Source of the DNA: Cocleimonas flava
GTDB lineage: Bacteria > Pseudomonadota > Gammaproteobacteria > Thiotrichales > Thiotrichaceae
Assembly: GCF_004339015.1 (NCBI RefSeq)
Contig: NZ_SMFQ01000005.1
Coordinates: forward strand, 496,001 to 560,000
DNA length: 64,000 nucleotides
Reading direction: 5' to 3'
The notes under the pieces were generated by a model. That model ran no database searches. It saw only the letters and a list, made by a program, of their open reading frames with translations, and was not told where the DNA came from. Every line of letters starts with the position of its first letter. Position 1 is the stretch's first letter. Below, piece after piece: positions 27,518-62,478 of this stretch. The translations under genes were made by a program, and so were the position numbers.

Positions 27518-28789
27518 TTAACTGAAGGCATTAGAGACTAAAATTAGTCGCGTTAGAACACTACTGCTAGCCAATACGACTATGCTTAATGCACAGATCT
27601 GGCGCCAGTTTGTGCGGAACTTTACCAATGAATAATCAAGTAACATGATTAGTGGTAAAGCTATTGCATAGATTGCAAATTGACAAAGCTCCAGACCGAT
27701 AGCAAAAGCAGCTAAAGCCATTACATCAACTTGCCCCGCAAATAATACTTCAGAGGCAGAAGCTGCAAAACCAAAGCCATGAATCATTCCTATAATCAAC
27801 AATCCTCTCCAGCTTAGAATACTTTGACGACGAAAGATTATAAAGAGTCCCGCTACCACAATAGATAAAGCTATGGATAATTCTACCAATGGAATAAACC
27901 AGGAAACGGAAGGCGCGAAACCATAAAGCCCTGCTACCAAGGTTATCATGTGACCCAGAGTAAAAGCAGATGCCAAGACAAGTGCTTTGCGCCATGTTGA
28001 TGCGACGATAGCGATCAATATAATCATCGCTAAGTGATCTAAGCCTCTATATATATGTTCCGCACCAATCAGTGCTGACTCATAAAGCATTTCCCATTTA
28101 GTCTGAGTGCTTGGAAAAGTCACATCTACAACGCCTAAAACTGCTTTTGTTTCTGTATTATTATTACGATGAAGTTTCACAACTGTACCGAGTTTATCCA
28201 TCACCGGAAAGTTATGTCCAAGATTTGATCTTATGTGCAACTCTTTATTTAACCCATTAACGGGTACAGAAATCATCACATCGAGGGTGAGATCGAAATA
28301 AGAAGCACTTGTTATTTGGGCTTGATCTATGGGTAATTCGAATGTTTTGAGCGCTGATTTCAAAGTACCAAATTGCGGTCGCTCGTCATCGTTCCAGAAA
28401 CGAAAGCCCTCAACGTTTGTATCTGCACGCTTGTTTCCAACCCATAATTCTACAGCGTGGTTTAGTTGCTTTCGTAATATTGCATCGCTTTTTGTCACAG
28501 TAGATAAGTCTAGAATCGTTTTACCTTCCGATTCTAAACTGTATGGAGGAGTCGTTGATTCCTCTCCGACTTTCCAATCATCTGGAAGAAGTACAAGTGG
28601 TGCTGGCATACGAATCAGGACAACCGATGAATCATTAGTTTGCTGTGCTACATGAACAATTCGCGGGTCTGAATAGCTAAAATGTGCGAAAGCTATTGTA
28701 GGAATGCTACTCATGACAAAAACTACAAAAGTAATTAACCCTGAGAAAATTTTATTTCGATTGTTCTTATATGGACTGACTTTTATCAC
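27518..28789 (-). CDS. HupE/UreJ-like membrane protein with large extracytoplasmic domain
   Basis: 423 residues. Signal peptide (to about residue 36, ending IAFA|HF), a soluble domain of about 200 residues, then seven or so membrane helices. The helical part has the HupE/UreJ_2 motifs GAEHIYRGLDHLAMI, FTLGHMITL and IHGFGFA, whose histidines suggest metal binding. HupE relatives are linked to nickel or cobalt import; this longer form is of unknown role and the link to metal is inference. The start is GTG. It follows the VOC gene on the same strand after a hairpin (28813-28833). Confidence 0.8.
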   Translation of the reverse strand: MIKVSPYKNNRNKIFSGLITFVVFVMSSIPTIAFAHFSYSDPRIVHVAQQTNDSSVVLIRMPAPLVLLPDDWKVGEESTTPPYSLESEGKTILDLSTVTKSDAILRKQLNHAVELWVGNKRADTNVEGFRFWNDDERPQFGTLKSALKTFELPIDQAQITSASYFDLTLDVMISVPVNGLNKELHIRSNLGHNFPVMDKLGTVVKLHRNNNTETKAVLGVVDVTFPSTQTKWEMLYESALIGAEHIYRGLDHLAMIILIAIVASTWRKALVLASAFTLGHMITLVAGLYGFAPSVSWFIPLVELSIALSIVVAGLFIIFRRQSILSWRGLLIIGMIHGFGFAASASEVLFAGQVDVMALAAFAIGLELCQFAIYAIALPLIMLLDYSLVKFRTNWRQICALSIVVLASSSVLTRLILVSNAFS

Positions 28790-28812
28790 CTTTACACCCT
28801 ATAAAATGAAAC

Positions 28813-28833
28813 CCGGTGGACGTACTCCACCGG
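28813..28833 (-). terminator. Hairpin between VOC and HupE-like genes
   Basis: CCGGTGGA (28813-28820) pairs with TCCACCGG (28826-28833), loop of five. It starts 25 bp after the VOC stop. The tail TTTCATTTTAT follows on the minus strand, so it may be a partial terminator inside the operon. Confidence 0.6.
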
Positions 28834-28857
28834 ATTAGTTTCGACAAGACTTTATTG

Positions 28858-29463
28858 TTATTTGGATCGAGGATCCCATAAAGCTTCACCAGTTTTCTTT
28901 TCATGAGCGATACCTTCAGGAAAACTGACAAGCTCCATCTGCATTCCCCAAGGTGACAAAAAGTAAACCCATTCCTCTCCTTCAAGAGGAGTACCGGTCA
29001 GTGGATGCGGATTTTCCAAGACTTTTACATCATTGTCTCGTAAATACTTAACCGCTTTTTCCATATCATCGACATAAAAGCCAACGTGAAAACCGCCGAT
29101 ATCACTGTTCTTAGGCGGTTTCTGGTTTTGATCAGGCGACGAGTACTTGAAAATCTCGAATGCAGGACCGTTGGCGCAACGCACCATTGTAATAGTGTCG
29201 ATTACTGCACGAGGATTGACGTTTAGGTTCTTGGTCATCCAATCATCATCAAATGGACCAAAAGGACCAAATGAGAAGAACGATTTACAACCCATTACAT
29301 CCACAAAGAATTCCGTAGCCTTGTCCACATTTGGCACGGTGATCCCGATATGCTGTGTACCACGCATACCTGGTAGTTCTGCTAAAGTTACCGTATTCAT
29401 GCCAAAAGCTAATAAAAAAACGCCGACACACTTACTCATTATTTCACTTAATTTTTTACTCAT
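28858..29463 (-). CDS. VOC/glyoxalase-family protein with signal peptide
   Basis: 201 residues. An N-terminal hydrophobic export signal (about 8-29, ending VTLA|EL) precedes a vicinal-oxygen-chelate domain with paired betaalpha modules: HIGITVPNVDKATEFFVDVMG and GGFHVGFYVDDMEKAVKYLR (about 38-56 and 125-144). His and Glu ligands are plausible in HIGIT, FEIF, GFHVGF and MELVSF. A secreted VOC protein is unusual. The role could be dioxygenase, lyase or binding protein. GAGGAG precedes the ATG. Same strand as the GMC pair upstream, with a 166-bp gap. Confidence 0.8.
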   Translation of the reverse strand: MSKKLSEIMSKCVGVFLLAFGMNTVTLAELPGMRGTQHIGITVPNVDKATEFFVDVMGCKSFFSFGPFGPFDDDWMTKNLNVNPRAVIDTITMVRCANGPAFEIFKYSSPDQNQKPPKNSDIGGFHVGFYVDDMEKAVKYLRDNDVKVLENPHPLTGTPLEGEEWVYFLSPWGMQMELVSFPEGIAHEKKTGEALWDPRSK

Positions 29464-29629: not shown

Positions 29630-31204
29630 TTAGATATTCTTGGCATTCATCTCCTGAGCAATATACTCAGCCTGACGAATTGCTAACGCGGCTATGGTCA
29701 AGGTAGGATTCTCTGCACCACTGGTTGTGAATTGACTACCGTCAGAAACAAATAGATTTTTCACATCATGAGTTTGTCCCCATTTATTTACCACGCCATC
29801 CTGAGCTTTCGCACTCATTCTATTGGTACCCATATTATGACTGGCAGGGTATCTACCCATAATATTCACTTTAGTTGCACCCACAGCCTCAAGCAAAGCA
29901 GTCGACTTAACATTTGAATGTTTTATCATTGCCGTATCATTATCATGATTACCTTTGTAAACCACGGGGATAGGCAAACCATTCTGATCTTTTTCTGTTG
30001 GATGAAGCGTTACGCCATTTGATTCCATTGGCATATCTTCACCACAGATCCAGAAACCTGCCATATTTCTAAAGTTTGCTAATGAATTAGCCATCTCACG
30101 TCCCCAACCACCAGGCTTAAGAAAAGCAGACATAAATGGCAGACCGATATGCAATATTTCTAACTCATAACCAGCCACATGCCCACGTGTTGGATCATTG
30201 TCGGCCCACTCTGATACTAGTCCTGGAACAACCGTACTTTTATGCATATTGACAGGCCCTGGCATTTCTCCATAAACGGCTGTACTCGTATGTGTCATGT
30301 AGTTTTTTCCGACTTGTCCGGAAGAATTTGCAAGACCGTCTGGAAATAAGCTGGATGCTGAATTGAGTAAAAGTCTTGGAGACTCGATAGAATTTCCAGC
30401 AACAGCAACTATCCGTGCTTTTTGAAAATGCTGATTTCCATCTTTATCAGCGTATAGAACCCCTGTCACCTTACCTTCTTTATTGTGCTCGATACGTAAC
30501 ACCATAGAATTAGGTCGGACTTCGATATTACCTGTAGCTTCTGCTTTAGGAATTGCCGCATCCATACTTGACCACTTTGCTCCGAAACGACAACCCTGCA
30601 TACAGAATCCAGTTACTTGACACGCAGCACGACCATCTCGAGGCTTAGTGTTAATTGCTAATGGAGCTGGGTGACAATGCGCCCCTATACGTTTGGCACC
30701 TTCTGCTATAACTTTATAGTGAGCACTGGGCTTATGATATGGAAGTCCAGAGGCTTTAGTTCCAGTTACACCCAATTTACTCTCTGCTCTTTCGTAATAA
30801 GGAGCAAGTTCCTCTAAAGATATTGGCCAATCCAATACATTAGCACCGGCTATATCACCATTGGTGGTACGCATTTTGAATTCATGCTCCTGGAAACGTA
30901 AAGCTACGCCTGCCCAATGCATAGTGGAACCGCCGACACCTTTTACTAACCAGGTAGGTAAGTTAGGGAAGTTCTTCGTTAAAGCTGTTGGGCCAGCTGT
31001 TACCCTTTTGTCTAACCAGGTGATTTTTCCAAACATCTTCCATTCGTCGTTTTCTATATCTTCACTAGTAAAACGTTTTCCTGCTTCTAGCACTACACAA
31101 CGAATGCCTTTCTTTCCTAGCTCTTCAGATAATGTTCCTCCTCCAGCTCCTGATCCAACTATTACTACCAAGCTATCATCATTAAGGTCAAATTTTGTAT
31201 TCAT
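29630..31204 (-). CDS. GMC-family dehydrogenase, gluconate-2-dehydrogenase flavoprotein type
   Basis: 524 residues. FAD motif IVGSGAGGGTLSEELG (about 15-30), GMC signature VKGVGGSTMHWAG, and the C-terminal NPTLTIAALAIRQA. The segment CQVTGFCMQGC has cysteines spaced 6 and 4, like the [3Fe-4S] ligands of bacterial FAD-glucose dehydrogenase, so a cluster is likely. It lacks a signal peptide. The TAT-signal small subunit encoded directly upstream (nine-base gap) would carry it to the periplasm. No third, cytochrome c subunit is seen nearby. Substrate unknown: an alcohol, sugar or polyol. Ribosome site AGGAG. Confidence 0.88.
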   Translation of the reverse strand: MNTKFDLNDDSLVVIVGSGAGGGTLSEELGKKGIRCVVLEAGKRFTSEDIENDEWKMFGKITWLDKRVTAGPTALTKNFPNLPTWLVKGVGGSTMHWAGVALRFQEHEFKMRTTNGDIAGANVLDWPISLEELAPYYERAESKLGVTGTKASGLPYHKPSAHYKVIAEGAKRIGAHCHPAPLAINTKPRDGRAACQVTGFCMQGCRFGAKWSSMDAAIPKAEATGNIEVRPNSMVLRIEHNKEGKVTGVLYADKDGNQHFQKARIVAVAGNSIESPRLLLNSASSLFPDGLANSSGQVGKNYMTHTSTAVYGEMPGPVNMHKSTVVPGLVSEWADNDPTRGHVAGYELEILHIGLPFMSAFLKPGGWGREMANSLANFRNMAGFWICGEDMPMESNGVTLHPTEKDQNGLPIPVVYKGNHDNDTAMIKHSNVKSTALLEAVGATKVNIMGRYPASHNMGTNRMSAKAQDGVVNKWGQTHDVKNLFVSDGSQFTTSGAENPTLTIAALAIRQAEYIAQEMNAKNI

Positions 31205-31213
31205 TTTATTCTC

Positions 31214-31792
31214 CTACCCTTTAAGCCAGTCAATCTCATCAAAACCTCTGTGGAGGTATCCACCCTTTTCCCAGGATGACCCTCCATATCCGAATCTTGG
31301 CCACAGTTCTTCGTTGTTATAGATTCCCATCATTACTGCATTTCTTAGTGTGCCAAAAAACTCCGTAGACTCGATTTCTTCAAGTACAACAACTCGATCT
31401 TTTTCTTTTTTAACCTCTATATATTTTTTACCAAAATGCTTCATTGAACGTTTATCTAACTCAGAAGCTCCATCATTAAGCTGTTTTTTAAGCGATGAAT
31501 CTTCAGTGGCTTTTTCGCCCATAGGTAAGATGATTTTCGCGTAATGAATATCTTCCAGATCATCGTTAGGGAAAAGATCTCTCGCCATCAGCAAAAGCGT
31601 TGAACTTGCATGTTTATCCAATGCTCCTTTAGCCCATGCGTCTGCAGAAGCTAATATGCCACCACCAAGTAAACTGACACTAACTACAGCAGCTCCGGCA
31701 GAAGATAAGAATTTACGCCTGCTTAATTGAACATCTTGTTGCTCGTCTGTTGTTTTGTTATCGGCATCATCGCCGAGTGAAACACGTTTCAT
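31214..31792 (-). CDS. Gluconate-2-dehydrogenase subunit-3-like protein, TAT-exported
   Basis: 192 residues. A twin-arginine signal, SRRKFLSSAGAAVVSVSLLG (about residues 25-44), ends near ADAWA. The rest matches the small gamma/subunit-3 family that partners GMC flavoproteins (LLLMARDLFPNDDL near the start, LFPND typical). It escorts the flavoprotein through the TAT system and stabilises it. Its upstream region shares motifs with those of the aco-like operon and the monooxygenase-like gene. GAGGAG precedes the ATG. Confidence 0.85.
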   Translation of the reverse strand: MKRVSLGDDADNKTTDEQQDVQLSRRKFLSSAGAAVVSVSLLGGGILASADAWAKGALDKHASSTLLLMARDLFPNDDLEDIHYAKIILPMGEKATEDSSLKKQLNDGASELDKRSMKHFGKKYIEVKKEKDRVVVLEEIESTEFFGTLRNAVMMGIYNNEELWPRFGYGGSSWEKGGYLHRGFDEIDWLKG

Positions 31793-32242
31793 TCGTTTGC
31801 TCCTCTAAATTCCTTTTTAATATAATTATTCACAGATACCTCCGAGTGAAGAGAGATAAGTTGTTGTTTTGCTTTGGGGTAATACACTCTAAAAGGTTTT
31901 GTCTACTGCTTATGTATCAAGCAAAACTAACCTCTGATTGAGTTTGGCAAACGTAGCTTTTGAGTAACAGAAGATCTCTTAGACAAAATATAAAGAGGAG
32001 GAATTGTGTTTCATATTTGTGACAAAGAAACACTATTGACACATGTTATTTAAAATTGAGACAAAGGGTCGTTTTGCTCTCAGTAGAAAACCAGGCTCAT
32101 AAAATAAAAAAGACTGTTTTTCTTTGAAAGTTATTTGGATGAATAAACGTTAAAGGAAAGAGATATTTTAATTACTGCTATGATTTTTTTACTAATTTTT
32201 CTGAATCAATTAGTTTCTGTACTTAGTTTATGTAGGTAATTG
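31793..32242 (-). promoter_or_regulatory. Regulatory region A of the GMC operon
   Basis: 450-bp gene-free stretch. Shared elements: GTTTGGCAAACG (31942-31953), AGATCTCTT (31972-31980), AATTGTGTTTCATA (32002-32015), TTGTGACA (32017-32024), GAAACACTATTGACAC (32027-32042) and TTGAGACAA (32057-32065). The same order and similar spacing occur in region B (33453-33721); the GTTTGGCAAA and GAGACA elements also occur in region C (39435-39777). Likely binding sites for the AcoR-like regulator at 33722-35584 (inference). Confidence 0.6.
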
Positions 32243-33007
32243 CTACCTATTCTCTAATAAAAAATTCATAACTATACGTTTAAATAAACCGGGCTTTTCA
32301 GCATGAAGCCAATGACTTGTATCTTCTATTATTTTTAAATGACAATTAGGAAAAAATGCATCGATGGCATTTTTATGTTTTGCTTGAATATAATCCGATT
32401 CATTACCTTTCAAAAAAAGAGTTGGCCCATCAAATGTACTTCCGGTTGGCGCTAAAACAATGTTTGGATATTCAGATTCAATTGCTTTTAAGTTAATTCG
32501 CCACTTAAAACCAGCAGATCTTTTAACTAAATTTTGTAATAGAAATGATCTAATATTTTTCTCTGGAATATCAGATGACAACAAATCATCTGCATCTTTA
32601 ATTGTTTTTATTTTTTCTAGATTAATAGAAGATAAAGCCTTAATTATATCGTCATGCCGATTTTTATAGGTGACTGGCGCTATATCAACGACCACTAAAC
32701 TATTTATACGCTGCGAATGGTTCATCGCTAGTTGCATGGCTATTTTACCGCCCATGGAATGCCCAATCAGGTTAGTCGAGACAATACCCTGACTATCCAT
32801 ATAACTCAGTATGTCATTTGCCATAGTCGGGTAGTCCATAGCGTGTAAATGAGGTGATTCACCGTGATTACGTACATCTAACCTATGCACAGTAAAATAT
32901 TCAGATAGAGACTTAGTGAGCATATTCAAATTGCTCAAAGAACCAAATAATCCATGAATTAAAATCACAGATTCCCCTATTCCTTGAACATTAGCGTTAA
33001 GATTCAT
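32243..33007 (-). CDS. ybfF: Alpha/beta hydrolase, YbfF-type esterase
   Basis: 254 residues. Oxyanion region HGLFGSLSNL, the nucleophile elbow GHSMGGK (Ser near residue 92), and the catalytic His in DTSHWLHAEKP are all present; the acid is probably the Asp/Glu in FLKGNESDY. Layout and length match YbfF acyl-CoA/ester hydrolase. Cytoplasmic; physiological ester unknown. No ribosome site is obvious. It lies downstream of the ABM-domain gene, separated by a repeat copy. Confidence 0.85.
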   Translation of the reverse strand: MNLNANVQGIGESVILIHGLFGSLSNLNMLTKSLSEYFTVHRLDVRNHGESPHLHAMDYPTMANDILSYMDSQGIVSTNLIGHSMGGKIAMQLAMNHSQRINSLVVVDIAPVTYKNRHDDIIKALSSINLEKIKTIKDADDLLSSDIPEKNIRSFLLQNLVKRSAGFKWRINLKAIESEYPNIVLAPTGSTFDGPTLFLKGNESDYIQAKHKNAIDAFFPNCHLKIIEDTSHWLHAEKPGLFKRIVMNFLLENR

Positions 33008-33098: not shown

Positions 33099-33452
33099 TT
33101 AAATCGTAAAACCGCCGAATGGCTTCATATACTCTGGGTTAAGACCTGTAATTGCCTCTTGTAAATCATCAGTTATGTTACTGTAAACGACAAAACGGGT
33201 AATTTCAGAGGCTTCTAAAAAGCGCTCTGCAAGCTTCCCAAAACTGCCTAAATGAATCATCGCAGATTCAACATCTCGATAACGCTCATGAACATGAAAT
33301 GAAGTCTGATCTTCTGCAATAGTCCATTCATAGTTCATGGTACCTTGTTCTTGACGTGAAGCATCTATCAGATCTTTCATAACAGCATCAAACGCTTCTT
33401 TTTGTCCGTCTTTAATCTTGCCGTCTACTGTCCAAATAATATTATTACTCAT
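33099..33452 (-). CDS. ABM-domain (antibiotic biosynthesis monooxygenase-like) protein
   Basis: 117 residues: a single ferredoxin-like ABM domain (WTVDGKIKDGQKEAFDAVMK, then the FHVHERYRDVESAMIH strand-helix unit). Relatives include YgiN quinol monooxygenase and stress proteins; no cofactor is needed in this family. I chose the ATG at 33450-33452, which has AGAGGAGA upstream, over the longer frame to 33503. Its upstream region B shares motifs with those of the GMC operon and the aco-like operon. Confidence 0.83.
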   Translation of the reverse strand: MSNNIIWTVDGKIKDGQKEAFDAVMKDLIDASRQEQGTMNYEWTIAEDQTSFHVHERYRDVESAMIHLGSFGKLAERFLEASEITRFVVYSNITDDLQEAITGLNPEYMKPFGGFTI

Positions 33453-33721
33453 TATATTCTCCTCTGTTTTTTTAAAACTATATTTTCTATGAGAAAGATT
33501 CACAGCTGTGAACTGGATACATTGGGAGGTATCTTTTTGCTCGTAGAAATACAGTTTGGCAAACGCGAGACTGGGGTAATAGTAGATCTCTTTTAAAGAT
33601 CATAGAGAGGAGACAATTGTGTCTCATAATATACAGGATGAGACACTCTTGAAACGTATTACCTAAGGATGAGACATAATGAAAGTACTAGATTAAACAG
33701 AATAGCCTCATATGGAAATAT
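33453..33721 (-). promoter_or_regulatory. Regulatory region B of the ABM gene
   Basis: Holds GTTTGGCAAACG (33554-33565), AGATCTCTT (33584-33592), GAGACA-ATTG-TGTCTC (33610-33625), and GGATGAGACA twice (33636-33645 and 33667-33676), 31 bp apart, about three helical turns. The pattern parallels region A base for base in several blocks. GAGACA/TGTCTC is the presumed core of the AcoR-like binding site. Confidence 0.65.
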
Positions 33722-35584
33722 CTAGTTAGTCCGACTCAACTGATATGTTTTCATTTTGCGATACATAGTTGCCCTGCTTATACCTAATCGACGAGCAGCT
33801 TTACTCACATTCCAGTCTGTACTATTCAATGTTGAACGTAAATGTCTTGGGTCATTCTCATCAAGGTTAGAATTAGAGGATATTTTAATAGGCGTAGGGT
33901 TTTCAGTGTTTTTTTCTGTTACTTGTGTTCGAAGATTTTCAGGCAGATTTACTTCATGAATAGTCTTACCGTTTCCACCAAGTAAGGAATAACGCATGAC
34001 ATTACGTAATTCCCAGAAATTCCCCAGCCACTGATGGTCTAACAACAACGAATAGGCTGCATCACTAATATCTACGGGACCTTTTGCCAACTCAATAGCA
34101 ATTTGAGAAATTAAAAATTTCAAATCATTACGTTTTCTCAAAGGTTTGAGAACAATCGAAGCCCCATTCGTATGATGGAGTAATTCAAGACTAAGTTTTC
34201 CTTGTTTTACCAGTTCATTTGGCTCGTCATGTATAGAAGAAATGACCCGCAGTTTATTTCCTGACTCCAGATCATCATTTTGTACTGCGACATCAATTTC
34301 TTTCAAAAGAGAGACAACTGACATTTGTAAATTATTCGGAAGGCTGTCTATAGATTTTAAATAAATCGTTCCAGCAAATTCTTGTTTTGCTGTTTGATTA
34401 AGGCTGCGTAGGCTATCAAGTTCAGATAAAAATTTATCAACTCCCTCCTTAGTTACATCCACAATCGTACAATCAATAGAGACGAATGGAACATTCAAGA
34501 ATGACGATTCATCATGTAATAATTCGGCAAAGGTTTTTTTACCACATCCAGTTTCACCTTGAAGTAACAATGGAACGCCATGCTTGTATAATTCTTTAGC
34601 TCGATCTACCGTTGCAAGCATACTCTTGTCTTTACCAACGATATCACGTAAAAGTTTTTTCTTAGGCGTTTTGACACTACTAGCCTTTACTTTACTGCGA
34701 TTCAAATTGGGTAAAAAAGGAGTAGCTATAACCGTAGAACCTTGGTCGATATCTACATTAATTTTAGTACCTGCTAAAGATGCCAGCTTGTCTACATCAA
34801 GACCAAATACATCCTCTACTTTTTGATTAATTAGCTCTTCATGTTGCTTATAACCAAGAAGTTTAGCCGCGTAATTAGTAAGCCCGACAATATCTCCTGT
34901 TGCATTGACTGCGCATAGTGCATTGATAGATTCATCAGCACTGGAACCTACGCCCGCAAAAGATAGGTGCATAGTATCTATATCAGAATAATGTTTTTTG
35001 AATAGACGAGCCTGAATTCTGGCTGCTGCTAACGACAAGATATACTGATAAAAAATATAATTTTGTGATTGATCATCATCACGCCCCGCAATAGCCAAAG
35101 CACCTATAAGTTCATTTTGTGAATCGAAAAGAGGGGTTCCTGTACAACTGAATTGTCTAAAGGATTTATAGTAGTGACTTTTACCCTCAACGGTAATCGA
35201 CTTTTTTTCCTGTAATGCAAGTGAGACCGCATTAGTTGATGCTGCCGGTTCACTCCAACAGAAACCAGGTGATATGCTAGCTGGCTTAAGAAATGCAGTA
35301 CTTACATGCTCCTGATAACCCATCAATAATGTGCTATCAGTGCCAGCGACAAACAAACCTTTTTGAGATTTCTGCATTAACTCTGCCAAACACTGTATTT
35401 CTTTGGTATCGCCTAGTAAAAAATCAACTAACTGATCTTGTCTTCTAGTTAGTTCGGTATCTTGAAGACGTTGAATCGGACGCGGGGTATATTGAGAAAG
35501 CTGATAATCATTTCTACAGCGTTGCCACGATGATGCGATAGCTAGCTTATTTACACTACTATTTGGATTGTAGATATGTTTCAT
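33722..35584 (-). CDS. AcoR-like regulator with degenerate AAA+ domain
   Basis: 620 residues: GAF-type sensor (about 50-205), a PAS-like segment (about 215-290), an NtrC-type AAA+ domain (about 310-535) and a Fis-type helix-turn-helix (about 588-614). Walker A is GETGCGKK (343-350). The GAFTGA loop that contacts sigma-54 is absent. The Walker B acidic pair is replaced (TIYLKSIDSLP instead of a hydrophobic-DE form, 406-416), and the arginine-finger region is eroded (LSLELLHHTN). The HTH is intact. So it probably binds DNA but does not activate sigma-54 promoters. Start chosen at 35584 by the GGAGGAGG site; the frame extends to 35650. Last gene after the aco-like operon. Confidence 0.87.
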   Translation of the reverse strand: MKHIYNPNSSVNKLAIASSWQRCRNDYQLSQYTPRPIQRLQDTELTRRQDQLVDFLLGDTKEIQCLAELMQKSQKGLFVAGTDSTLLMGYQEHVSTAFLKPASISPGFCWSEPAASTNAVSLALQEKKSITVEGKSHYYKSFRQFSCTGTPLFDSQNELIGALAIAGRDDDQSQNYIFYQYILSLAAARIQARLFKKHYSDIDTMHLSFAGVGSSADESINALCAVNATGDIVGLTNYAAKLLGYKQHEELINQKVEDVFGLDVDKLASLAGTKINVDIDQGSTVIATPFLPNLNRSKVKASSVKTPKKKLLRDIVGKDKSMLATVDRAKELYKHGVPLLLQGETGCGKKTFAELLHDESSFLNVPFVSIDCTIVDVTKEGVDKFLSELDSLRSLNQTAKQEFAGTIYLKSIDSLPNNLQMSVVSLLKEIDVAVQNDDLESGNKLRVISSIHDEPNELVKQGKLSLELLHHTNGASIVLKPLRKRNDLKFLISQIAIELAKGPVDISDAAYSLLLDHQWLGNFWELRNVMRYSLLGGNGKTIHEVNLPENLRTQVTEKNTENPTPIKISSNSNLDENDPRHLRSTLNSTDWNVSKAARRLGISRATMYRKMKTYQLSRTN

Positions 35585-35671: not shown

Positions 35672-36394
35672 TTAACTAAAATTTTTTATTTTTCTATATC
35701 TTTTTATTAAGTTTCTCGTCAGTTTCTCGGCAGTAGAATTCTGATTTACTTTCAAGTCTAATGTTTCAAAGTTGCAATGAGCATCGCTATCTACACGCTG
35801 CTCAAGTTTCAATAGGCTATTTAGTTGATTAACTGCTTTTGTTATTTCTTTTATATTAGCTTCGTAGATTAGCAATGCGTGAGCAAATAGGGCTTGTTGA
35901 CCATTTTGACCTTTTACCCGGGATCTTCTTTGAGCTGTTCCTACCAATTTCCTCCCATCTACAACTACATTATAGTCGCCGTCACAAAATGCACCCGGAA
36001 CAGATGAGCAATAACCTTTGATGTCTTGTGATGCGAGCTCATCTATAATCGGATCACAAATTATTCCGTAACTTTCAGCAATACTGAAAGGTCTGCCTGT
36101 AGTATTTGCCAAACCCAAAGAAATATTGAGTATACCTGGCCCTTGTGGAGTTATTCCTCCTCCTGTTTGGCGGACATATACTGGCCAACCCAAGGATTCT
36201 GATGCCTTTACAGCTTCCTCAAAATATTTATTATGTGTGAGCTTATAAGGCACAACAAGACATTGGTTGGCTGACCAAATAAAACAGGCGCTTTCATCTG
36301 TGCCAGCAACAATATCCTCTAATAGCTGCTGTTCATCTGCAAGCGCCTCATCAATGGTGTTATATACGACCAGAGAATTTCTGTGTCTGATCAC
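35672..36394 (-). CDS. Lipoate-protein ligase family (LplA-like)
   Basis: 240 residues of the biotin/lipoate ligase fold. The lipoate-binding RQTGGGITPQGPGILNIS (about 76-93) matches the RRxSGGGAV-x-x-GN block of LplA. The lysine in DGRKLVGTAQRR (about 149-160) fits the catalytic KIxG motif. It probably attaches lipoate or octanoate to the free lipoyl domain encoded two genes upstream. It starts with GTG, overlapping the E2 stop by one base (TAGTG), so it is translationally coupled. Confidence 0.82.
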   Translation of the reverse strand: MIRHRNSLVVYNTIDEALADEQQLLEDIVAGTDESACFIWSANQCLVVPYKLTHNKYFEEAVKASESLGWPVYVRQTGGGITPQGPGILNISLGLANTTGRPFSIAESYGIICDPIIDELASQDIKGYCSSVPGAFCDGDYNVVVDGRKLVGTAQRRSRVKGQNGQQALFAHALLIYEANIKEITKAVNQLNSLLKLEQRVDSDAHCNFETLDLKVNQNSTAEKLTRNLIKRYRKIKNFS

Positions 36395-37068
36395 TAAGTT
36401 GTGCCTTCTATCGTATTACATAAATCAGTTAAGAAATTTGCCGCGGGACCTCCGTCTATCGCCCGGTGATCAAACGTTAACGACAATCCCATAATGGGTT
36501 TCCAAACCAAACTATCACCTTCACGCACCGCTGTTTCTGTTATACACCCGACGCCCAAAATACCGATCTGTGGTGTATTCAGAATAGGAGTAAAATGCTC
36601 GACACGGGTTAAACCCAAATTACTAATCGTGAAAGTACCTCCTGTCATCTCTGTCACACTGAGTTTATTATTTCTTGCTCGATCAGATAAATCCTGACGT
36701 GCCGCTCTAAGCTCAAAGACATCCATTTTATTAGCACCAAAAATTGCAGGTGCTGCTAATAAATTTCCGGGAAGCGCTATTGCCACACATAAATCTACTT
36801 CATCAGGTAAGTGGATTTCTTTCTCAACGACAGTACCATTAATATCAGCATGTCGCTGTAATACCTCGACTACAGAAAGCATCAGTAAATCCTCTACTGA
36901 TACTTTGTTTCCAGTGTCTGCCAACTTGTTCTTTTCTGCAAGAAGAGAAGAGACATCACAACTAGCATGATGGGTAAGTTGCGCTGATTCCTGTAAGCTC
37001 TTTGCCATTTTATCGGCAATCATGGCGCGAGCGCCTCGCAACTTTACTACGTTTGAAGTGTTACTCAT
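36394..37068 (-). CDS. Dihydrolipoamide acyltransferase (E2) catalytic domain only
   Basis: 224 residues covering only the E2 acyltransferase core (VKLRGARAMIADKMAKSL to the end), with the catalytic HRAIDG within FDHRAIDGGPAA (about 199-210). A usual E2 is 370-430 residues with lipoyl and E1/E3-binding domains ahead of the core; both are missing here. The lipoyl domain is encoded by the separate 78-residue gene upstream. No subunit-binding domain is visible in either protein. It would transfer the acyl group from lipoyl to CoA. Ribosome site weak. Confidence 0.87.
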   Translation of the reverse strand: MSNTSNVVKLRGARAMIADKMAKSLQESAQLTHHASCDVSSLLAEKNKLADTGNKVSVEDLLMLSVVEVLQRHADINGTVVEKEIHLPDEVDLCVAIALPGNLLAAPAIFGANKMDVFELRAARQDLSDRARNNKLSVTEMTGGTFTISNLGLTRVEHFTPILNTPQIGILGVGCITETAVREGDSLVWKPIMGLSLTFDHRAIDGGPAANFLTDLCNTIEGTT

Positions 37069-37099
37069 AATTCAGTCCATAATCTCAAAACAAACACAA

Positions 37100-37336
37100 T
37101 TAAGCTTCAATATGGGCTATCACATCACCCTTATTGACAACATCATCTTCTTCTTTTGTGATTTTTATGGTTCCTGCAGCAGGCGACTCAACTTCACATT
37201 GAATTTTTTCTACCATCACTTCAGCTACTAAAGTTCCCACTTCTACCGTAGCACCATCAGATACCAACCAACTGGTTATAACACCTTCATTATCTTCTTC
37301 CCAAAGATCATCAGGAATAATTACGTCTATACTCAT
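37100..37336 (-). CDS. Free-standing lipoyl-domain protein
   Basis: 78 residues, one complete biotinyl/lipoyl domain. The lipoylated lysine is in MVEKIQCEVESPAAGT (near residue 44), where VEK replaces the common TDK. A partner PAAGTI turn follows. It would act as the swinging arm between E1, the separate E2 core and an E3 that is not encoded here. AAGGTGA precedes the ATG. Lies between E1 beta (53 bp) and the E2 core (31 bp) on the same strand. Confidence 0.9.
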   Translation of the reverse strand: MSIDVIIPDDLWEEDNEGVITSWLVSDGATVEVGTLVAEVMVEKIQCEVESPAAGTIKITKEEDDVVNKGDVIAHIEA

Positions 37337-37389: not shown

Positions 37390-38406
37390 CTAAGCTGCCA
37401 TCTTCTTATAAGTAGCGACAATTTTATCGGCATTAGGCAGGCAGAATTGCTCCATAATTTTAGCGTATGGAATAGGTACATCAGGAAAAGCAACTCGCTG
37501 AGGAGCAGCCTTAAGTACAGATATATCGTGCTCGACCACAGAAGCAATAACTTCCCCAGATACTCCGAAGCTATGATAATCTTCATCTACTACTATTAAG
37601 CGCCCAGTTTTAGCGACCGATGCTCTAATCGTATCTCTATCCAGCGGTACCAATGATCTCAAATCAACAACTTCTGCACTGACTCCACTTTCTTCAAGCT
37701 CTGCTGCCGCTTTCAATGCATGGTGAACTCCCATACCTAAACTAACGATACTGACATCTGTCCCCTCACGAACTACTGATGCTTTACCAATTTCAACTTC
37801 ATAGTATTCTTCTGGCGTATTTACCGTAGCTCCTCTCTCTGTACCTAACCAACCCATGCCTTGTAGACCTTTGTGGTACATATACACGACTGGGCTATCT
37901 TCTCTAATAGCGGCATTCATTAAACCCTTCGCATCGTAAGCATTAGAAGGAGCAACAACTTTCATGCCTGGCAAGTGGGCAAAAGTGCCATATACACATT
38001 GTGAATGCTGTCCCCCATCTGAGTAACCGCCACCCGTGGAAGTCATTAAAACCATCGGAACTTTAACGTTGCCTCCAGAAAAATAAATATTCTTCGCCAT
38101 ATTGTTATAGATCTGGTCGAAACACACTCCAAAGAAATCTACGAACATCAACTCTACGATAGGGCGCATACCATTTTGAGCTGCACCCACTGCCGCTCCC
38201 ATAAAGGCTGTTTCTGAAATGGGTGTATCACGAATACGTTCTTCACCAAATTCTTCAATTAAACCTCGAGTATTTCCATAAACACCACCAAGGACACCAA
38301 TATCCTCGCCCATTACAAATACTTTTTCATCTTTACGCATATACTGCGCTACTGATTCAGCCATTGCTCTGGCAATAGTTAGCTTTCTTTCTTTTGTATC
38401 ACTCAC
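37390..38406 (-). CDS. acoB: 2-oxoacid/acetoin dehydrogenase E1 beta subunit
   Basis: 338 residues, transketolase-like pyrimidine-binding domain plus C-terminal domain. Blocks FVMGEDIGVLGGVYGNTRGL, DTPISETAFMGAAVGAA and GGGYSDGGQHSQCVYG are standard for PDH/acetoin DH beta. It forms the heterotetrameric TPP enzyme with the alpha subunit just upstream. A GTG start has GAGGAG upstream. Acetoin is the best guess for the substrate because of the AcoR-like regulator and lipoate ligase, but pyruvate or a related diketone cannot be excluded. Confidence 0.88.
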   Translation of the reverse strand: MSDTKERKLTIARAMAESVAQYMRKDEKVFVMGEDIGVLGGVYGNTRGLIEEFGEERIRDTPISETAFMGAAVGAAQNGMRPIVELMFVDFFGVCFDQIYNNMAKNIYFSGGNVKVPMVLMTSTGGGYSDGGQHSQCVYGTFAHLPGMKVVAPSNAYDAKGLMNAAIREDSPVVYMYHKGLQGMGWLGTERGATVNTPEEYYEVEIGKASVVREGTDVSIVSLGMGVHHALKAAAELEESGVSAEVVDLRSLVPLDRDTIRASVAKTGRLIVVDEDYHSFGVSGEVIASVVEHDISVLKAAPQRVAFPDVPIPYAKIMEQFCLPNADKIVATYKKMAA

Positions 38407-38447: not shown

Positions 38448-39434
38448 TTAGGCAAACACGCTGGTAAGCGCGTCTTCGGGTGCTGGGTCTTCACTTGCTC
38501 TTGCATGAGCGATAGCTTCATCGACCTGCGCTTGTGCGGCAGTCTCTATGTTTTCAATCTCTTGTTCTGTAGCATCACCTTGCTCTATAAGATGACTTCT
38601 GAATTTTGTAATTGGATCATCAGCTTCTAAAGCATCCTTTTCACCTTCAGGTCGGTACCCTTCCGCATCACCAATAAAATGCCCCGCTAGACGTGACGTT
38701 TGAAGTTCAAGTAATGTTGGACCTTTACCCGCGCGAGCACGCTCAATCGCTTCACCAGCTACTTTAAATATTTCTAATGGATCATTACCAGCCACATATT
38801 CACCAGGCATACCGTAACCGGCAGCTCTGACACTATTTTTTTCGACTGCTGTAGATTTTTGTTTGGAAACCGAAATACCCCAGGAATTATCCTCAATAAT
38901 AAACACAACAGGTAAATTCCAAACTGCCGCTAAATTCAGACTTTCATGAAATGCACCTTGATTAGCCGCTCCCTCTCCAATATAAGCAACAGCAATACCT
39001 GATTTTTTCTGCATTGTTTGCGATAAGGCTGCACCTACAGCAGGACCTAAACCTTGCCCAATGATGCCAGAGCAGGCAAAGTTCACATCATCATCAAAAA
39101 GATGCATGTGACCTCCACGTCCGCCTCCTAATCCATTCGCTTTACCAAAGATCTCAGACGTCATACGTTTAAGATCGACTCCTTTAGCAATCGCTTGATG
39201 ATGAGGTCTATGTGTTGCAGTCACTGTATCTTCATCTTTCAAGTGAGCACATACCCCCACTGCACAAGGCTCTTGACCGTTAGAAAGATGCATCTCTCCT
39301 GGTACAGGTCCATTTGCCATATTAAAGACTGGTGACTTGCCTTCCATATAGGCTGCGGCAATAGCCTCTTCGTAGCGTCTACTAACCACCATTTTTTCGT
39401 ACATCCACATTTTTTGTTCTAGCGTCGGTTGCAT
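38448..39434 (-). CDS. acoA: 2-oxoacid/acetoin dehydrogenase E1 alpha subunit
   Basis: 328 residues. The TPP-binding GEGAANQGAFHESLNLAAVWN (in part, residues about 166-185; G-E-G then N) is intact, and GGRGGHMHLFD is the phosphorylation-loop region of E1 alpha. First gene of the operon E1 alpha, E1 beta, lipoyl, E2 core, ligase, AcoR-like. GAGAGGA precedes the ATG. Upstream region C contains tandem TGAGACACTTT motifs. Confidence 0.88.
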   Translation of the reverse strand: MQPTLEQKMWMYEKMVVSRRYEEAIAAAYMEGKSPVFNMANGPVPGEMHLSNGQEPCAVGVCAHLKDEDTVTATHRPHHQAIAKGVDLKRMTSEIFGKANGLGGGRGGHMHLFDDDVNFACSGIIGQGLGPAVGAALSQTMQKKSGIAVAYIGEGAANQGAFHESLNLAAVWNLPVVFIIEDNSWGISVSKQKSTAVEKNSVRAAGYGMPGEYVAGNDPLEIFKVAGEAIERARAGKGPTLLELQTSRLAGHFIGDAEGYRPEGEKDALEADDPITKFRSHLIEQGDATEQEIENIETAAQAQVDEAIAHARASEDPAPEDALTSVFA

Positions 39435-39777
39435 AATTTATCCTCTCGATTCGGTGTTACAAATTTTGACTTGTATTTCACCGCTCTGACTTTATTAGTG
39501 TCATTTAGCGATCTGAGAATTATTTTGGCAGAAGCCAATAAGAAGAAGTAGGAGACAACTTTACTCAAGGTTTGGCAAAGCTAAATATGACTCATATTTC
39601 TCATGATGAGACACTTTTGAGACACTTTTTACTCTGATGAAACAACATCTCTATTTCTTCAAACGATGAGTATCCAGATTAACTTCAAAAACCGAATTCT
39701 GTTTCAAATTACGTGTCATTCTCTAAACAGATGTTCTCTATTAGACTGCTGTTTAATATGAAGTCAGGCGTTCCACT
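39435..39777 (-). promoter_or_regulatory. Regulatory region C of the aco-like operon
   Basis: 343 bp between divergent genes. Contains GTTTGGCAAAG (39570-39580), a 6-bp inverted repeat TCTCAT-G-ATGAGA (39599-39611), and the tandem perfect 11-mer TGAGACACTTT (39607-39617 and 39618-39628). The 11-bp period places both on one face of the helix, about 175-195 bp upstream of acoA. GGAGACAA also occurs at 39551-39558. No sigma-54 -24/-12 pair was found. Confidence 0.6.
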
Positions 39778-61088: not shown

Positions 61089-62390
61089 CTATTTACAAAC
61101 AGCACCTTTGAACCCTGATTCAATCCATTCCAGACTTTTCATACCTTCTGGAGGATTAACACATGCCGCGTTATAACGCTTAATATTAACTAATGTGCCT
61201 TTACCGGATGCTTTATCAAACTTATAGGTACCAAACGCTGTTCCCTGTGTTGCCTGATGGCCTCCTGCGAGATTCATAGAAATTTTTCCGCTAGGAACTT
61301 CAAACTCCAAGCCTTTAAACGCTTCAATTGTAGCTGCTTGATCTGTTGAATTTGCTTTATCAGCAGCAGACTTAACACCCAAGATAGCTTGAGCCATGTG
61401 ATAAGAAGGGTAAGTAGGAAGTGATTTAAAACGATCTACGTATGCTTTTACAAACCAATCATTTAATGCGCTATCTTCCGCTAAAGGACCATTCGGGCCA
61501 CGTGCTCCAATAATAGTGCCATCAGGTATTTGTGAACCTAAACGTTCTATACCGGTTTCGCCACCTGTTAAAACCACTTTGCTTCGTGAAAACAACTGAC
61601 GTCCGCCACCCTGAATAACAAGAGCTTCCATATCGCCACCCCAGAAACTCGAGTGAACTATATCTGGCTTCTTGGTCAACAATGCTGAAATCTCAGCCCC
61701 GTATTGTCCAGCAAACACCTTAGGGAATTGCTCGCTCACTGATTTAGCTGACTCTTTAAGGACCTTCATTGAACCAGAAAAGTCTCTCCATGAATCTTGA
61801 CCAAAAGCATAGTTTTGATTGATACCAGAATAGGTAGAAACATCTTTCACTGTATCGACTACGTATCTTGCCGCAGCAACATTATCCATAGTGGCATGAG
61901 CTGAAGTTCTAAAAACATACTTAGGCGATGTGATGATATCTTCGAAAACTTGCGATGTTCCACAATCGAAGAACACTGTTAATTTTTTCTCTTCTTCTGC
62001 TACTGGAGCAATAGCTTTACAACTACCAGAAGAGATGTAACCAATAACTGCATCTACTTCGTCTTTTTGAACCAATTTTTTATAATCAGCTACTTTCTGT
62101 TTACTGTTCTCATCAACAAAAATCGGAGCTATTTGCGCGCCGGCTAATCCAACAGATGAATACGCACCAGGTAATTGCCCTTTATTAATCGCATCAATCA
62201 AAAGCTCTGCCGCATTACGAGCTGGAATACCAAAAGGTCCCGCAGCACCCCCAGATAAAAATGTAACTACGCCCAGCTTTACTTCTTTTTTATCTTCCGC
62301 CACAGCCGAAGATGAGAATGCAGATACTACAAAAGCCGACGCCATCACTGAGGCAAGCAATCCTTTTTTTAACAATCTATCTTGAAACAT
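61089..62390 (-). CDS. Branched-chain-type ABC transporter substrate-binding protein
   Basis: 433 residues. Signal peptide (to about residue 31, ending SSAVAED), then a type-I periplasmic binding fold of the Peripla_BP_6 group (VKLGVVTFLSGGAAGPFG; AVIGYISSGSCKAIAP). First gene of the operon with livH, livM, livG, livF, an iron-ADH and a GabD-like enzyme. Ligand unknown; the enzymes suggest a short alcohol, hydroxy acid or their amide rather than leucine. AGGAGGAG fixes the start at 62390. Sigma-54 promoter lies about 75 bp upstream. Confidence 0.9.
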   Translation of the reverse strand: MFQDRLLKKGLLASVMASAFVVSAFSSSAVAEDKKEVKLGVVTFLSGGAAGPFGIPARNAAELLIDAINKGQLPGAYSSVGLAGAQIAPIFVDENSKQKVADYKKLVQKDEVDAVIGYISSGSCKAIAPVAEEEKKLTVFFDCGTSQVFEDIITSPKYVFRTSAHATMDNVAAARYVVDTVKDVSTYSGINQNYAFGQDSWRDFSGSMKVLKESAKSVSEQFPKVFAGQYGAEISALLTKKPDIVHSSFWGGDMEALVIQGGGRQLFSRSKVVLTGGETGIERLGSQIPDGTIIGARGPNGPLAEDSALNDWFVKAYVDRFKSLPTYPSYHMAQAILGVKSAADKANSTDQAATIEAFKGLEFEVPSGKISMNLAGGHQATQGTAFGTYKFDKASGKGTLVNIKRYNAACVNPPEGMKSLEWIESGFKGAVCK

Positions 62391-62461
62391 AACTCCTCCT
62401 AAAAAAATCATTTAATTTCCAAGCAACAAGAAAATATTCTGTTATTGCTGCCAACTAGGAT

Positions 62462-62478
62462 TGCAACAAGTGTGCCAA
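62462..62478 (-). promoter_or_regulatory. Sigma-54 promoter, -24/-12
   Basis: Minus strand reads TTGGCACACTTGTTGCA: GG and GC separated by exactly 10 bases, matching the TTGGCAC-N5-TTGC consensus. Transcription would start near 62450, 60 bp before the binding-protein ATG. Confidence 0.85.

Follow-up and report, generated by a model that had tools for sequence, protein, structure and literature searches.

A cassette-associated regulator of presumed AcoR-like ancestry lacking sigma-54 contact and ATP-hydrolysis residues in Cocleimonas flava

What might a regulator built like a sigma-54 activator do beside a dehydrogenase cassette, when the residues that contact sigma-54 and hydrolyze ATP are gone from it? 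The gene lies within 64,000 nucleotides of the Cocleimonas flava genome (the window, meaning the whole stretch analyzed, to which unlabeled coordinates refer). A preliminary description had proposed an AcoR-like protein that switched to sigma-70 activation or to repression, and such a switch is still the best reading of the sequence. The AcoR name is taken over from that description and is presumptive: the homologues compared are AcoR-like, none of them a characterized AcoR.

The regulator and its AAA+ domain

The open reading frame contains no internal stops and its 620-residue product carries the following features.

33722..35584, minus strand: AcoR-like regulator with a degenerate AAA+ domain, 620 amino acids (ORF translation, Pfam, alignment)
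34532..34558, minus strand: Walker A, GETGCGKKT, kept (alignment)
34397..34477, minus strand: loop-1 region at the expected GAFTGA position, GAFTGA absent (alignment)
34337..34375, minus strand: Walker B region, AGTIYLKSIDSLP, with KS in place of DE (alignment)
34169..34228, minus strand: arginine-finger region without either arginine (alignment)
33749..33823, minus strand: Fis-type HTH, intact (Pfam and alignment)

The Sigma54_activat match in Pfam is nearly full-length (profile positions 1-166 of 168) yet weak, at 60.5-61.6 bits, and corresponds to the bEBP fold without the sigma-54 contact loop. Ten other Sigma54_activat loci in the same genome score 119-249 bits, against 61.6 for the regulator; the P-loop, DE and both arginines are present in eight of the ten, and the GAFTGA pattern in three of those eight. 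AAA_lid_14 (38.5 bits) and HTH_8 (47.4 bits) are also matched, the latter in agreement with the intact HTH of the preliminary description. Its account of the motor holds equally at the level of single motifs. Walker A is retained, loop 1 reads KFLSELDSLRSLN where homologues have ELFGYxxGAFTGA, and the acidic pair of Walker B is replaced (IYLKSI versus LFLDEI in homologues). FRxDLYYRL of the homologues has become LSLELLHHT, with both arginine fingers gone, and, in a change that had escaped listing, sensor II has passed from WPGNxREL to WLGNFWEL, exchanging arginine for tryptophan. Set against the features of a sigma-54-dependent bEBP (EBP54), the protein thus has Walker A and lacks GAFTGA, the Walker B DE, the arginine fingers and the sensor II arginine. 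The sigma-54 contact and the ATP-hydrolysis residues (Walker B glutamate, arginine fingers) are gone, and we consider it highly probable that the regulator is uncoupled from sigma-54. Walker A being intact, ATP binding may still matter.

The sensor, also said to be intact, fares less evenly. The N-terminal region of E. coli DhaR, of solved structure (4lrx), is matched by residues 15-167 (E 1.2e-4), and W110, E112, T117, N118, H137, C147 and P151 are invariant across six members of the regulator's clade; the PAS match, at 22.6, falls exactly on the Pfam cut-off, and Pfam gives no GAF match in the protein.

A clade of eroded relatives

Is this one damaged gene, or a lineage? Among 63 genomes of the order, Cocleimonas flava included, the sole orthologue at E up to 1e-35 is in genome G022 (57% identity). 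A six-member profile run against 398 genomes of the phylum matched 81, the returned loci and ten chosen stretches being examined; a search of 1729 plasmid records, with four of 30 listed rows examined, and a second one that gave seven records, with all but Ruegeria examined, extended the sample. These searches added relatives in Gemmobacter, Roseibium, Phaeobacter, Mameliella, Paracoccus and three genomes of another class (L087-L089). Besides the G022 orthologue there are seven relatives, six adjoining the same cassette and one on a cut contig, and further eroded members may exist beyond the sampled loci. A separate scan of genome contigs yielded a single locus, the canonical activator L048.

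The nine full-length members form one clade (SH-aLRT 99) in a tree built without the motif columns. All nine lack GAFTGA and the Walker B glutamate, as does a tenth, frameshifted copy from Mameliella, so that the loss of sigma-54 machinery first proposed for one gene is confirmed as common to the entire clade, which makes a single damaged copy unlikely. Other residues are lost unevenly: the Walker B aspartate persists in Roseibium and L087/L088, both arginine fingers persist in L087/L088, and the P-loop lysine is gone in the Phaeobacter and Mameliella copies. A 65-row motif alignment holds ten eroded rows, the nine clade members and L055; the P-loop GK, a GAFTGA-like loop, DE and both arginines are present in 55 of the 55 other rows (54 distinct genes). 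The label "sigma 54-interacting transcriptional regulator" carried by the Gemmobacter and Roseibium records is probably wrong.

On that tree, which has 69 rows, erosion requires four changes: in the regulator's clade, in L120/L121/L122/L124, in L055 and in L125, whose placement is a long-branch join. L120, L121, L122 and L124 make up a second clade, from another class, without GAFTGA and the Walker B DE. A second tree of 70 rows that included DhaR gave five changes, four of them forced by well-supported branches. We had considered DhaR as a clade member; the tree puts it outside the nine-member clade (support 100) and among the 17 rows of the next supported set, and its branch is so long that its position is unsure. 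As far as sequence can tell, the regulator's lineage is that of full-length AcoR-like homologues, and its sigma-54 function appears to have been lost separately from that of the other eroded homologues sampled, although the loss may be one that its clade has in common with DhaR.

The long tree branches would suit a decaying pseudogene or outgoing allele, as would the frameshift in the Mameliella copy and the lack of any regulator in the 22.7 kb around the Aminobacter cassette. That reading is nevertheless extremely unlikely, because ten of the 11 regulator copies (two Phaeobacter strains counted) are full-length, the HTH and its predicted operator are conserved, and dN/dS is about 0.1. The last value comes from the sole testable pair, two Phaeobacter regulators that are 93.9% identical; for Cocleimonas flava and G022 the synonymous sites are saturated. 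With 113.7 synonymous and 41.3 nonsynonymous changes, the pair gives a dN/dS of 0.106 for the whole gene, 0.159 for the AAA+ domain and 0.092 for the N-terminal region, and the HTH end has ten synonymous changes and no nonsynonymous ones. Purifying selection therefore maintains the dead AAA+ domain in this pair. Synonymous divergence of the regulator (dS 0.31) is far above that of four adjacent cassette genes (0.025-0.107; L080 7980-9710 versus L085 12649-14379), so that the allele may have been exchanged separately.

The cassette, its promoters and a predicted operator

The genes surrounding the regulator are as follows.

38448..39434, minus strand: E1-alpha of a 2-oxoacid/acetoin-type dehydrogenase (domain and PDB matches)
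37390..38406, minus strand: E1-beta (domain matches)
37100..37336, minus strand: stand-alone lipoyl domain, 78 amino acids (called "lipoyl domain-containing protein" in plasmid homologues)
36394..37068, minus strand: E2 catalytic core without lipoyl domain, 224 amino acids (domain match)
35672..36394, minus strand: lipoate-protein ligase-like protein (Pfam)
33099..33503, minus strand: ABM-fold protein (Pfam)
32243..33007, minus strand: alpha/beta hydrolase (Pfam)
29630..31792, minus strand: GMC oxidoreductase and its small subunit (matches in L078, L080, L085)
27518..29463, minus strand: HupE/UreJ-like and VOC proteins (syntenic in Phaeobacter M644)

The order E1-alpha, E1-beta, lipoyl domain, E2 core, lipoate-ligase-like protein is conserved near the regulator, and genes for the GMC oxidoreductase with its small subunit, VOC and HupE/UreJ proteins often accompany it. 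E2 is split (36394-37336) into separate lipoyl-domain and core genes with the ligase-like gene adjoining, and the same split occurs in seven plasmids whose E2 core is at least 60% identical. No E2 core was found in the G742 and G776 cassettes. The cassettes at L117 5837-9208 and L118 10855-14044 have E1, the lipoyl domain and the ligase, and no E2 core was found in 19.9 kb. A related precedent for a stand-alone lipoyl protein is the case of sulfur oxidation, where lipoate-binding proteins have ligases of their own (PMC6067878). In the PDB, E1-alpha is matched best by pyruvate dehydrogenases, and acetoin as the substrate would be a matter of resemblance. E1-beta is 76-90% identical to the Cocleimonas flava copy in other cassettes, the regulators 25-57% (five compared). 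A literature search that covered subscription journals thinly found no description of the regulator's clade, the operator or the split-E2 cassette. Two further irregular cases come from the stretches L081 and L084: in the Mameliella cassette E1-beta is in two pieces and the regulator frameshifted, and in the Aminobacter stretch insertion sequences lie nearby and neither regulator nor E1-alpha was found.

Does anything in the cassette look like a sigma-54 promoter? The preliminary description had seen none, and we agree that none is convincing: across nine cassette segments no -24/-12 element scores better than shuffles (p 0.11-0.93). The best candidate upstream of E1-alpha, TGACACGTAATTTGAA, has one of the two Gs at -24 missing, and 23% of shuffles equal or exceed it; before the GMC genes 94 of 100 shuffles are as good, and before the regulator 24 of 100. 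Near-matches with up to two mismatches number 45 across the window against 35 (sd 5) expected, and the top score in Phaeobacter P78 (15.3, p 0.11) is not negligible. The same scan recovers a perfect sigma-54 promoter, TGGCACACTTGTTGCA, at 62462-62477, where none of 100 shuffles is as good; the genome has six perfect TGGCAC-N5-TTGCA sites, this one included (control, 0). That promoter precedes an ABC binding-protein gene (61089-62411). Shortly after the window ends there is an activator gene, its domain match 459 bp past the end, in which P-loop, GAYTGA, DE and arginine fingers are all present. Scanning whole canonical loci was uninformative as a control, as 52 of 53 pass and so do 98% of their shuffles.

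Absence of rpoN from the host, which we considered as a cause of the erosion, is ruled out: the gene is present in Cocleimonas flava and in all eight of the other genomes examined, including four with clade members, so sigma-54 independence was not forced. It is also on one of four plasmids examined, that of Gemmobacter, where the eroded regulator follows it in the same orientation after 110 bp (L078 6589-7875). This plasmid also bears a monooxygenase cluster (L146 6648-16794), which we take from its gene order to be of propane type, with an upstream -24/-12 candidate equaled by none of 100 shuffles, and an activator gene that has P-loop, GAFTGA and arginine fingers but a Walker B unrecognized by the search pattern; cluster and activator may be the partners of the plasmid rpoN. 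A sigma-54 partnership by another route, such as a mixed ring with an intact activator, could draw on rpoN in the genome and next to the Gemmobacter regulator, and on the other activator loci, of which eight in ten retain P-loop, DE and both arginines and three of these eight the GAFTGA pattern too. We hold it to be very improbable, since the targets are without a -24/-12 element and the arginine fingers or the P-loop are gone in several members.

A different sequence stands before the cassette operons, in distantly related bacteria: a 26-bp inverted repeat found by pattern scan, which is likely to be the regulator's operator. Three candidates are in the window.

33620..33645: predicted operator, perfect TGTCTCA-N12-TGAGACA, upstream of the ABM and hydrolase genes; extra half-site 33670-33676 (pattern scan)
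39588..39613: one-mismatch predicted operator upstream of E1-alpha, with a further half-site at 39618-39624; 11-bp direct repeat (pattern scan)
32037..32063: weaker predicted operator upstream of the GMC genes, two mismatches, N13 (pattern scan)

A strict form, TGTCTCR-N10-14-YGAGACA, was sought in ten genomes and plasmid records (about 24 Mb) with the backward pattern as control. It occurs once in the 4.49-Mb Cocleimonas flava genome, at 33620-33645 beside the regulator, once each in G022 and the Roseibium plasmid and twice each in the Phaeobacter M644 and Mameliella plasmids. By annotated coordinates, all seven sites precede E1-alpha, the regulator's own operon or, in Cocleimonas flava, the ABM gene; the backward pattern has no site in any of the ten records, and our own chance estimate is about two in 24 Mb. 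No strict site was found in G742, G776, G795, Gemmobacter or Paracoccus: the G795 sequence analyzed does not cover the cassette, Gemmobacter E1-alpha has a predicted operator with one mismatch, and Paracoccus, G742 and G776 have variant half-sites only. With up to one mismatch allowed, the operator is absent from 53 canonical-relative loci (about 1.5 kb on each side). The half-site TGAGACA is near chance overall in the window (10 copies, 8.2 expected), and six of the ten fall within 1332 bp of six cassette intergenic segments (p 1.6e-8), or within 1011 bp of three intergenic regions that were chosen after the motif had been seen (p 3e-9); among 8192 classes it tops the heptamers with at least four copies in those three regions.

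Mode of action and known systems

Which way would such a protein act? The main rival to activation is a repressor whose apo-protein sits on the operators until released by inducer. It is suited by a promoter-like match at 33599-33627 that overlaps the predicted operator (three found, 1.5 expected), and by the downstream arm, which in G022 and Phaeobacter P78, though not in M644, reads TTGAGACA and so resembles a -35 element. We regard repression as unlikely. In six cassettes the repeat starts 116-179 bp before the E1-alpha start codon, a long distance for simple blocking, and the extra upstream half-sites, one helical turn from the E1-alpha operator, suit activation better. So does the lack of a sigma-70 match at the E1-alpha genes of the window and G022, which fits an activator-dependent promoter, and regulators of bEBP and AcoR-like ancestry are mostly activators. 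We therefore consider an activator probable, with both the sign of regulation and the sigma factor inferred.

For an activator, an inducer, perhaps acetoin or some other small ketone, would bind the N-terminal domain, the inert AAA+ domain would hold the protein together as a dimer or higher oligomer, and the Fis-type HTH would engage TGTCTCA-N12-TGAGACA and nearby half-sites. Sigma-70 polymerase could then be recruited, with no use of ATP, to three targets: the GMC genes, the ABM and hydrolase genes, and the E1-alpha row. In Cocleimonas flava and G022 the E1 row ends with the regulator, which is encoded on that row's strand, and co-transcription would create positive feedback.

The sensor domains and targets of VpsR, HupR, NtrC and TyrR differ from those of the regulator, which is like TyrR, VpsR, HupR and the NtrC proteins of R. 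capsulatus and Caulobacter in being a bEBP relative without intact GAFTGA. According to PMC3162934, TyrR, DhaR and HupR depend on sigma-70, and VpsR and YplP have no GAFTGA; the NtrC proteins of Caulobacter and R. capsulatus are further such cases (PMC10274813). Most of these relatives are reported in the two papers to act at sigma-70 promoters. The preliminary description's "only a few" uncoupled members is thus an understatement, judging from these papers and from the four erosion events on our tree. E. coli DhaR is closest in design, with an AAA+ domain without GAFTGA, an altered Walker B (LFLEK), a Fis-type HTH and the matching N-terminal region, and it provides the best NCBIfam model (204.9 bits, yet far below the NF008485 cut-off of 551 bits). 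Unlike the regulator, DhaR has no more than 24% identity to any row, and there are no dha genes near the regulator. AcoR-like homologues with intact motifs have the same domain order at 24-28% identity over the whole length, and the setting beside acetoin/pyruvate-type E1 genes is like that of AcoR; the regulator differs in lacking the sigma-54 contact and ATPase residues and in having its own predicted operator. The regulator most likely works like DhaR, HupR, VpsR and the GAFTGA-less NtrC proteins.

The regulator belongs to a small family that moves together with a single catabolic cassette, and very probably serves there as an ordinary DNA-binding regulator. The overall reading, moderately probable, is of a cassette-specific regulator of AcoR-like ancestry that is independent of sigma-54 and most likely a sigma-70 activator of the split-E2 dehydrogenase cassette. 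There is an even chance that the mobile cassette carries its own regulator between bacteria of different classes while the motor decays stepwise and the operator stays nearly fixed in most, in a series from ATPase to pure scaffold. In such a series GAFTGA and the Walker B glutamate, gone in all members, would have been followed by the arginine fingers, and in Phaeobacter and Mameliella by the P-loop too.

GAFTGA-less bEBPs of the sigma-70 type are already known, and the regulator's clade would add to them. Operator and regulator together give a search handle for the split-E2 dehydrogenase cassette. The clade offers a natural gradation of dead bEBP motors that have a predicted operator in common, which makes the role of a non-hydrolyzing AAA+ domain directly testable.
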